Origin: Polyangium mundeleinium
GTDB taxonomy: Bacteria > Myxococcota_A > Polyangia > Polyangiales > Polyangiaceae
Reading direction: 5' to 3'
Assembly: GCF_028369105.1 (NCBI RefSeq)
Contig: NZ_JAQNDO010000001.1
Location: 9,952,501 to 10,016,500 of the forward strand
Length of the DNA stretch: 64,000 bases
The position numbers and the translations under genes were made by a program. Below, piece by piece: positions 17,640 through 19,635 of the stretch (position 1 is its first letter; the number at the start of each line of letters is the position of its first letter). The notes below the pieces were generated by a model. It did no database searches. It saw nothing but the letters and a program-made list of their open reading frames with translations, and was not told the DNA's origin.

Positions 17640-18656
17640 TCACCCGCGGCTGGACGACTCCGAGGCTCCCGTGAGGTGCACGCGTGCGCTGGACGCCAGC
17701 TCGCGCTGACGATCCTCGGATGGGACCGGACAAACGTCGACGATCCACGGCATCACGTGCAGTTCGAGGTGTTCCGCGAAGCTCGCCTGGCAGGGCTCGC
17801 CGAGGCACGCGCCCATCGCGGCCGCGAGCAAGGCGCCATAAAAGAGCGCCGTCTCCGTCGTCGGGCCCTCGAATGGCGGGCGCAGCTCGCAACGCGCGCG
17901 CTTTTGCTCGGACCACACCGCCCCCTCGATGGCCACGCGACCGAGCCCGGCCCGCGCGAGCACCCCGTCGAGCGCGCCCGGCGCGAGCACCGCCACACGC
18001 CCTCCCTCGCGCGCTTGCGCGTCGGCCTCGGACGCGACGACCAGGGCCATCGCGCGCCCCACGTGCTCGCCGAGCTCGATCGCGCCGCGCGGTCCGAGCC
18101 GCTCGAGCAACGCCGGCAGCGCGTCGAGCAGCACCGGCAAGAGCCCGCCCAGCGTCCCCAGGCTCTTCTGCAAATCGTGGCCGGCCTGGCTCGCGCCCAC
18201 CTCGACCCCTGGACGTCGCACCACGGTCATGAAGATCCGCGCCTCCGCGCCTTCCTGCACGAGCGGCAATGTCACCACGGGCGGCGCCTTGACGAACTGC
18301 ACGGCCACATCCTGCACGCCGTGCATGAAAGAGAACCGAAAGCGAAAACTCTCCGAAAGGCGCGCCTCGTCCTGCACGAGCGCCCGGAAACGCCCGTAAA
18401 ACGCCTCCACCCGCGTGCAAGGCGCGACCTCCTTGAACCAGTTTTTCCCGACGACCCGCTCGGGCGGCAGGCGCGAAAGGGCAGATTCGTAGCGGTTGTA
18501 CAGCAGGATCGTGCCGACCTCGTCGAGGACCACGAACCCGTAGGGCAGATCGTCGACCTCCGCTTTCGACATGCCGGCGAGACGCTCAACAGCGTCGAGC
18601 GTGCCGTCCTCCGACACCATGGCGGCCTGCACGGCCTGGTAGAAGCCACTGCTCAA
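17640..18656 (-). CDS. PAS-domain protein with photoactive yellow protein chromophore-site residues
   Basis: 338 residues. Residues 35-145 form a PAS domain very close to photoactive yellow protein (PYP): LPYGFVVLDEVGTILLYN then GKNWFKEVAPCT and FYGRF. Tyr53, Glu57 and Cys80 match PYP Tyr42, Glu46 and Cys69 with exactly the same spacing; Thr50 is Ser and Arg52 is Leu. PYP binds p-coumaric acid through the Cys. The C-terminal 170 residues are a separate alpha/beta domain with several Cys, possibly V4R-like. The start overlaps the stop of the upstream DUF4388 gene (ATGA). Likely a cytoplasmic sensor; whether it binds a chromophore is not shown by sequence. Confidence 0.75.
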   Translation of the reverse strand: MSSGFYQAVQAAMVSEDGTLDAVERLAGMSKAEVDDLPYGFVVLDEVGTILLYNRYESALSRLPPERVVGKNWFKEVAPCTRVEAFYGRFRALVQDEARLSESFRFRFSFMHGVQDVAVQFVKAPPVVTLPLVQEGAEARIFMTVVRRPGVEVGASQAGHDLQKSLGTLGGLLPVLLDALPALLERLGPRGAIELGEHVGRAMALVVASEADAQAREGGRVAVLAPGALDGVLARAGLGRVAIEGAVWSEQKRARCELRPPFEGPTTETALFYGALLAAAMGACLGEPCQASFAEHLELHVMPWIVDVCPVPSEDRQRELASSARVHLTGASESSSRG

Positions 18657-19471
18657 CGAACACCTCCGTCTCGAATTCGGAACGCCTCACCCCATCCCCC
18701 CTTGTCGAGCAATCGCATCAGGCCCCCGAGCATCTCGGGGACGTAATACCGCTGAAAACGCGCCTCATGGAACATCGAGGCGGCCTCGAAGACGGAAAAA
18801 ACCCACGTGGCGACCGCCTTCGGGATCGCCGACCGCGCCCGCTCCACGCCCGCCACCGTTACCAGGCCGTCCGCCGAGATCCGGAACGCCTCCATCGCCG
18901 GATGCGACGCGGCCGTGCGGGTCCAGGCCGTTTGCATGATCGACGACGCGAGCTTTGGCCCCAGCCATTTGCGCGTGTACACCGAGCACGCATTCATCAC
19001 GGCCGCGGCCAGCGCCACCTCCGTCGCATGGCCTTCCAGCATCACCGGGCGCAGCGACACGGGCGGCGTCTCGGAGGGCGCCGGGCGCGGCGGCGGCGAC
19101 GACGAACCACGCTCGTCGAGCGCGATCACGTGGAACACCGCCTGGGAAAACCCTCGAATGGCGGCGAGCGTCGCCTCGACGTCGGCGTCCGGCGGCGCTC
19201 CATCGGCGCTGGCGCGCAGCACACGCCCTCGCTCCAGGACGATTTCGCCCCACCGCTTGACGGACCGCACCTCCACGACACACGTCCGCCCCCGAGAGCC
19301 CAGGGAGCCGAGCAGGTCGTCGAGCCCGACCTCGTCGAGTTGGCCTCGGAGGATGAGCCGACTTCGTGCGCGGTCCGAAGGGACGCCCGCCCGATCGCCC
19401 CGACCGGCGTCGCTGGCCGCCCCCCCGAACCACGCTCCTCCCCCCTCTCCGAGGGCGGCGTTGTCGAACAT
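18653..19471 (-). CDS. DUF4388 (PatA-like) signalling protein
   Basis: 272 residues from ATG 19471, which has a GGAAGGGAG-type binding site just upstream; alternative ATGs at 19498 and farther up lack one. Residues 38-120 match DUF4388: SRLILRGQLDEVGLDDLLGSLG, then VVEVRSVKRWGEIVLERGRVLRASADG. DUF4388 domains occur in PatA, PixG and gliding-motility regulators. The C-terminal half is helical and unrecognised. It is the first gene of an operon with the PYP-like protein, with which it shares an ATGA overlap, so the two probably act in one pathway. A palindrome lies about 20 bases upstream. Confidence 0.75.
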   Translation of the reverse strand: MFDNAALGEGGGAWFGGAASDAGRGDRAGVPSDRARSRLILRGQLDEVGLDDLLGSLGSRGRTCVVEVRSVKRWGEIVLERGRVLRASADGAPPDADVEATLAAIRGFSQAVFHVIALDERGSSSPPPRPAPSETPPVSLRPVMLEGHATEVALAAAVMNACSVYTRKWLGPKLASSIMQTAWTRTAASHPAMEAFRISADGLVTVAGVERARSAIPKAVATWVFSVFEAASMFHEARFQRYYVPEMLGGLMRLLDKGGWGEAFRIRDGGVR

Positions 19472-19490
19472 GAGCACTCCCTTCCCTTGC

Positions 19491-19509
19491 TTGTACATGG
19501 TTCGTACAA
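19491..19509. promoter_or_regulatory. Candidate operator TTGTAC-N7-GTACAA
   Basis: A 6-bp perfect inverted repeat with a 7-base spacer lies about 20 bases upstream of the DUF4388 start codon. The sequence GGTTCGTACAATGT overlapping it at 19499 recurs with one change at 19599, exactly 100 bases away. The position suits a repressor or activator site for the DUF4388/PYP-like operon. No regulator is identified. Confidence 0.45.
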
Positions 19510-19635
19510 TGTTAGGGAAAGGGTGTCCAGCAGGTTTTTCAGCTTCTCCAGGCAGAAGGAGCCGTACGGGGCTCGCCGACGCCGGCTTGGACGTAGAAGG
19601 TTCGTCCAATGTCGACGCGAGGAGGACGGGGAGGG

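Follow-up and report, generated by a model that had tools for sequence, protein, structure and literature searches.

Does a member of the Myxococcota carry a true photoactive yellow protein (PYP), and if so, which partner would receive its signal? The question is raised by a gene on the minus strand of a 64,000-nucleotide stretch (hereafter, the window) of the 13.25 Mb genome of the soil myxobacterium Polyangium mundeleinium. This gene (17640..18656) encodes a protein of 338 residues with an N-terminal PYP domain and a C-terminal V4R-fold-like domain. A sequence-only reading of the DNA had recognized a PYP-like chromophore pocket and, regarding PYPs as known mainly from phototrophs, proposed that a copy fused to a second domain and paired with a DUF4388 gene would be a new kind of light or redox sensor. 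As checks it named a search against PYP entries, a structural model, and a search for tyrosine ammonia-lyase (TAL) elsewhere in the genome, and as counter-evidence better matches to generic PAS domains.

A PYP-family domain with a conserved pocket

The N-terminal domain, delimited as residues 22-148 (18213..18593, minus strand) by its match to the PYP profile TIGR02373 and by predicted fold, is confirmed as a member of the PYP family. Residues 18-123 align to Halorhodospira PYP, ungapped through Cys80, such that Tyr53 (codon 18498..18500), Glu57 (18486..18488), and Cys80 (18417..18419), all read on the minus strand, have exactly the spacing first noticed, that of PYP Tyr42, Glu46, and the chromophore attachment residue Cys69. 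The surrounding segment was likewise found to be nearly identical—VGKNWFKEVAPCT in the window protein matches the PYP motif IGKNFFKDVAPCT. By the definition given in PMC9664959, PYPs are PAS-family proteins with Cys69 in which Tyr42 and Glu46 are well conserved; the window domain has all three residues, together with PYP-type sequence and predicted fold. It shares these features and most of the pocket with the PYP of Halorhodospira halophila and the Ppr-PYP of Rhodospirillum centenum, but differs from both in having Trp at the position of Phe62, Ser at position 50, Leu at position 52, and His at position 100, as well as in its C-terminal extension, its PATAN partner, and the lack of a TAL among the lyases found. 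The replacements of Thr50 by Ser (Ser61) and of Arg52 by Leu (Leu63) are real, as first read, and Leu52 and Ser or Ala at position 50 are ordinary for the family, the published consensus being Leu52 and Ala50 (PMC12826048). The two published PYPs with Ser50 absorb near 434 nm (PMC12826048).

Pfam matches above cut-off in this region are to PAS and PAS_4 only, as would be expected of an ordinary PAS domain carrying a Cys by chance; however, these are the families in which Pfam mostly places PYPs anyway (PMC9664959), and several lines of evidence make such an explanation extremely improbable. No solved structures other than PYP chains match the region by sequence: 33 of the 34 PDB sequences found at E<=1 are PYP, Ppr, or PYP-derived FAST/nanoFAST chains (best 1mzu, 2.3e-17), and the sole exception (E 0.73) matches in the C-terminal part of the protein. 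TIGR02373 attains 85.5 bits over residues 18-121, against 24.4 bits for Pfam PAS, the reverse of a better generic match; when the genome was scanned with the same profile, the window PYP reached 87.7 bits and the next-best of the 18 matches 16.0 bits. Because the PDB matches are almost all PYPs, and because Tyr, Glu, and Cys fell at the three pocket positions in only 3 of 200,000 shuffled domain sequences, we do not attribute the pocket residues to chance. The proposed modelling agreed with this—the predicted structure, built from six sequences with a mean pLDDT of 66.9, matches 1mzu_C with Z 16.5 (rmsd 1.4, 106 aligned). The score of 85.5 bits misses the curated TIGR02373 equivalog cut-off of 143.05, and the protein is not filed under that equivalog; this profile takes in roughly 20% of PYP homologs (PMC9664959).

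Within the PYP domain Cys80 is the only cysteine (the others are at 256, 284, 289, and 309), whereas the proposed redox-type PYPs carry Y42C and S50C and no longer have Cys69 (PMC9664959). The redox half of the earlier proposal is thus unsupported.

Searching 377 Myxococcota genomes, the window's included, with the window protein (E<=1e-6) recovered PYP matches at 58 places in 42 genomes. Glu46 and Cys69 are present in all 58 domains, and position 42 is Tyr in 50 and Phe in 8; since these domains are related and the window protein itself was the query that recovered them, the counts describe conservation rather than 58 independent events. The window's PYP domain is itself under strong purifying selection (dN/dS 0.11-0.24 in four comparisons). 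As for the host, many published PYPs belong to taxa that are not known as phototrophs, Leptospira and Myxococcota among them (PMC9664959), which runs against both the presumed phototroph bias and the novelty claimed for such an organism. A myxobacterial origin of PYP has in fact been proposed, with the share of PYP-bearing genomes highest in Myxococcota (PMC9664959), and the phylum holds 9.7% of 984 PYPs in PMC12826048. The fusion to a second domain, likely V4R-like in nature, is no novelty either, as 20 fusions with PYP N-terminal to V4R are published (PMC12826048). The window protein is a true PYP, in a phylum already known as a host and in a fusion of known kind; what appears new, judged by the main texts searched, is the PATAN partner.

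A conserved, overlapping DUF4388 (PATAN) gene

The pairing with a DUF4388 gene proved to be real and conserved across related loci. The partner gene lies upstream (18653..19609, minus strand), with a likely ATG start at 19471 that is conserved as MFD in Polyangium loci, and combines DUF4388/PATAN with a conserved C-terminus that is helical in predicted secondary structure. Its PF14332 match (residues 88-193 of P0002; 19031..19348, minus strand) scores 32.6 bits against a Pfam cut-off of 25. We take DUF4388 to be the Pfam name of the PATAN domain, with indirect support from an above-cut-off PF14332 match in the control genome of Synechococcus elongatus (the family was found in 3 of 14 control genomes) and from a protein of the window genome that joins MshEN, HD, receiver, and DUF4388 (L127:1174-3381), a possible link between PATAN and pilus-motor-type modules. 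Altogether the window genome has 14 DUF4388 matches, of which 13 exceed the cut-off, two of these in one frame.

The two genes share four bases, TTGA (18653..18656, minus strand), formed by the partner's TGA stop and the TTG start of the 338-codon PYP frame. A Shine-Dalgarno-like GGAGGTG (18661..18667, minus strand) lies within the partner's last codons and ends 4 bases before this TTG; both it and the TTG/TGA overlap are conserved in all five Polyangium-genus loci compared. Translation of the PYP could alternatively begin at codon 13, an in-frame ATG. Among named loci the closest is that of P. fumosum DSM 14668, at 93% identity. Just 6 of the 377 Myxococcota genomes, the window's included, contain relatives of the partner (E<=1e-8), and in every one they adjoin a window-type PYP gene with the 4-bp overlap, which takes the form NTGA in five related loci and in G292, a further Polyangium. 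The Byssovorax and G295 partners score below the DUF4388 cut-off (12.5 and 17.9 bits). Against three genus-mates the partner has dN/dS of 0.14-0.29; against the very close P. fumosum, where changes are few, the values for its two parts are 0.40 and 0.07. A profile made from nine DUF4388 domains of the window genome found no DUF4388 gene beside the PYPs in the other 49 of 54 myxobacterial regions searched, several of which are short because contigs end.

Pfam recognizes no receiver domain in the window partner. For its predicted model, Foldseek and VIA gave no informative PDB match (best Foldseek E 0.31, best Z 5.2), which is compatible with a known fold. The two partners from outside Polyangium (L063:4910-5941 and L064:4886-6016) have about 100 more N-terminal residues than those of Polyangium. 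By eye the extension in Byssovorax and G295 looks receiver-like; Pfam gave no receiver match there at E<=1, and we set this candidate aside.

A PYP-PATAN pairing was not found in the main texts of the literature searched, and the supplements of PMC9664959 and PMC12826048 may list some such operons. The word DUF4388 is absent from the main texts of both surveys and PATAN from that of PMC12826048; PYP and PATAN are both mentioned in PMC5812497 and PMC11943482. The search for the word DUF4388 turned up a single paper, which deals with nitrite reductases of Chloroflexi. The 2025 survey (PMC12826048) singles out the way in which PYPs transmit their signal as an important gap, and a conserved, overlapping partner gene offers a specific and testable PYP pair.

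A fast-evolving and probably dispensable second domain

For the C-terminal domain (residues ~155-319; 17700..18194, minus strand), the predicted fold resembles MopR/PoxR phenol-sensor domains and a V4R protein: 2oso (Z 11.5, rmsd 3.2, 125 aligned), 5frw (Z 11.2, rmsd 3.9, 153 aligned), and 5kbg (Z 12.8, rmsd 3.7, 149 aligned, over a range that begins inside the PYP domain). These matches are moderate, with Z below 13 for a helix-rich domain with a long helix, modelled from the same six sequences at pLDDT 66.9, and CesD chains that are not named V4R score alike (3aj2, Z 11.4, rmsd 5.1, 135 aligned). Pfam V4R (PF02830) gives no match at E<=1 in the window protein, which is accordingly not filed as a V4R member. 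In hhalign comparisons with the V4R modules of PYP-V4R fusions the domain reached probabilities of 37% and 32%, the former aligning equivalent places. A diverged V4R/phenol-sensor fold is therefore suggestive rather than firm. The window protein is like the PYP-V4R fusions (20 published; eight rows of a clade in our tree) in its N-terminal PYP and predicted V4R-like C-terminal fold, but unlike them its C-terminus falls below Pfam V4R recognition, does not have the Cys pair found near the C-terminus of the five V4R relatives compared, and is probably dispensable.

This bears on an alternative in which the protein is a two-input receptor, with PYP sensing light and the V4R-like domain sensing a phenolic compound. 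The predicted likeness to the phenol sensors (Z 11.2-12.8) would fit such a role, as would the published reading of PYP-V4R fusions as joining light and small-molecule inputs (PMC12826048). The evolutionary record points the other way, and we regard the idea as improbable. The C-terminus evolves faster than the PYP domain in all three comparisons—0.355 versus 0.128 in dN/dS against 15x6 (2.8 times), 0.441 versus 0.143 against y55x31 (3.1 times), and 1.128 versus 0.108 against P. fumosum (about 10 times, on few changes). No Cys of this domain is invariant in the six-sequence alignment. In the Polyangium genome G292, moreover, the PYP protein is only 175 residues long and has no C-terminal domain, and the DUF4388 gene still adjoins it. 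Because the domain evolves fast and is absent from one Polyangium, it is probably dispensable, and a PYP-V4R-type fusion seems to be decaying in this lineage; the same two observations indicate that the conserved unit is the PYP domain plus its partner.

Chromophore supply

The search for TAL came out against the simplest expectation. Only one aromatic amino acid lyase is encoded in the window genome (648.6 bits), and it passes the HutH equivalog cut-off (670.5 versus 539.15); no TAL-type lyase was found there. The other five genomes with the gene pair also have one aromatic lyase each (627-652 bits), the HutH class being assigned for the window's only. Of the 41 further genomes with a PYP, 34 were covered; 10 of these 34 have two matches (both partial in G254) and one has none. 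Since no TAL was found, p-coumarate in Polyangium would need import or another route of synthesis, and this raises the question of which chromophore serves a PYP where TAL is not found.

One answer is that the domain works without p-coumaric acid, as an apo, ligand-binding, or docking PAS whose pocket is kept for another ligand. That all six pair genomes have a single lyase, of HutH type where it was classified, would fit, as would the contrast with G023, in which a PYP of a different type is adjoined by a lyase that falls below the HutH cut-off and has 2o6y as its best PDB match. We take 2o6y to be the TAL of R. sphaeroides (PDB title: putative histidine ammonia-lyase). Against this stand the retention of Cys69 and Glu46 in 58 of 58 myxobacterial domains and the strong purifying selection on the PYP domain, and we consider it a doubtful though not negligible explanation. 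Among published pyp operons, moreover, just 5% include TAL, and it has been suggested that p-coumarate is taken up (PMC12826048).

Near PYPs joined to cyclase-like domains, a TAL-like lyase stands alongside the L109 locus, and the L108 locus has a lyase with, by eye, the same His-Leu letters and an AMP-forming ligase nearby. The His-Leu pair is a mark of TAL.

A candidate route from light to the type IV pilus

How would the conserved pair work? The account we favor, at slightly better than an even chance, is that the PYP photoreceptor and its PATAN partner form a working unit, with the type IV pilus motor or the polarity system as the most plausible effector and the V4R-like domain as a leftover. 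p-Coumaric acid would bind at Cys80, Tyr53 and Glu57 would hold the phenolate, and blue light would be absorbed. The PYP protein, translated together with the upstream DUF4388 (PATAN) protein, would signal to it, and the latter would act in turn on that effector; the C-terminal domain would be the remnant of an ancestral PYP-V4R fusion, becoming dispensable. The computations show PYP-family membership, a conserved pocket, a conserved pair of overlapping genes, and a C-terminus that evolves faster; for the window pair we infer chromophore binding, the response to light, direct PYP-PATAN contact, and the motility output. Counting against the favored account are, above all, the failure to find a TAL, and also the TIGR02373 score below the equivalog cut-off, Trp in place of Phe62 in the pocket, the lack of a motility gene beside the pair among the ORFs examined, the low DUF4388 scores of two other partners, the weak placement of G295 in the PYP tree, and the uninformative PDB comparison of the partner model.

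A route from light to the pilus is, by family analogy, the reading that attracts us most: cyanobacterial PATAN regulators are described as acting downstream of light receptors and contacting PilB (PMC7690835, PMC5812497, PMC10519157), and two PATAN proteins of M. xanthus show co-occurrence with SgmX, a pilus regulator (PMC11580455). PilB is encoded in the window genome (TIGR02538, 791.8 bits, cut-off 675.65), and no motility gene stands beside the pair among the ORFs examined. PATAN domains are also part of regulators of cell differentiation, PatA for one. That occurrence, and the lack of an adjoining pilus gene, would fit an output of the same pair not in pilus motility but in gene expression or development, which we rate a serious possibility, if short of an even chance, given that the cyanobacterial ties to the pilus motor and the co-occurrence with SgmX argue, by analogy, for motility.

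The nearest comparison for the favored PYP-PATAN route is cyanobacterial PixD-PixE, a BLUF receptor and a PATAN response regulator (PMC7690835, PMC5812497). Both systems pair a type of blue-light receptor with a PATAN protein, a likeness in presumed working only. The window receptor is a PYP rather than a BLUF protein, its partner has no recognized receiver domain, and, unlike the PixD-PixE host, the window genome has no photosynthetic reaction centre gene (PF00124 search).

PYP groups and their neighbors across the Myxococcota

When the 58 PYP domains were placed in a tree with portions of two PYPs from the PDB, 28 of the domains formed a supported clade (98/97) that contains three groups. 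The window type forms the first, with five rows (97/96) comprising four of the genus and a Byssovorax MAG; G295, the most distant pair, joins it weakly (79/36). The second comprises the PYP-V4R proteins (8 rows, 100/99), whose C-termini pass the Pfam V4R cut-off in all six that were scanned, the other two matching a profile made from five group members. Instead of the window type's upstream PATAN gene, 7 of these 8 have a Ser/Thr kinase-like frame that terminates 35-73 bases ahead of the PYP domain, recognized by similarity to two Pfam-confirmed Ser/Thr kinases (L050, L079, L084, L086, L089, L094, and L098); it was not found at L081. In the third group (14 rows, 99/94) PYP is C-terminal, and 13 of 14 have a Roadblock/LC7 gene within 2.5 kb on the same strand (L052:8954-11138, L072, L080, L075, and nine more; exception L053), four of them Pfam-confirmed. 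The polarity protein MglB belongs to the Roadblock/LC7 fold family.

The PATAN, Roadblock/LC7, and Ser/Thr kinase genes beside these three groups represent three candidate signaling routes outside Table 2 of PMC12826048, whose operon entries are GGDEF, EAL, histidine kinase parts, pCL, TAL, and BLUF. In the fullest version of the scenario, which we put forward as speculation and think unlikely in its entirety, a PYP-PATAN switch would steer the type IV pili of a non-phototrophic myxobacterium as an independent counterpart of PixD-PixE, p-coumaric acid would come from plant matter, and the same PYP stock would have been rewired to Roadblock/LC7 or Ser/Thr kinases in relatives.

Other arrangements were also seen. 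PYP is fused to a domain resembling class III nucleotide cyclases at L108:5850-6884, L109:5797-6843, and L106:1851-2924 (19.6, 18.1, and 21.3 bits, all just below the Pfam cut-off of 21.9), in which the second metal-binding motif looks degenerate by eye. At L095:3286-6354 and L097:2946-6236 PYP lies N-terminal to PAS_2-GAF, histidine kinase, and receiver domains, with PHY also in L095, and at L053, L102, L111, and L113 a PYP-like domain is followed by HisKA and HATPase_c. Finally, a cluster of V4R matches (L038, L042, L043, and L003) has a very weak PAS/PYP-like match alongside, at G000:C1:3252312-3253747.
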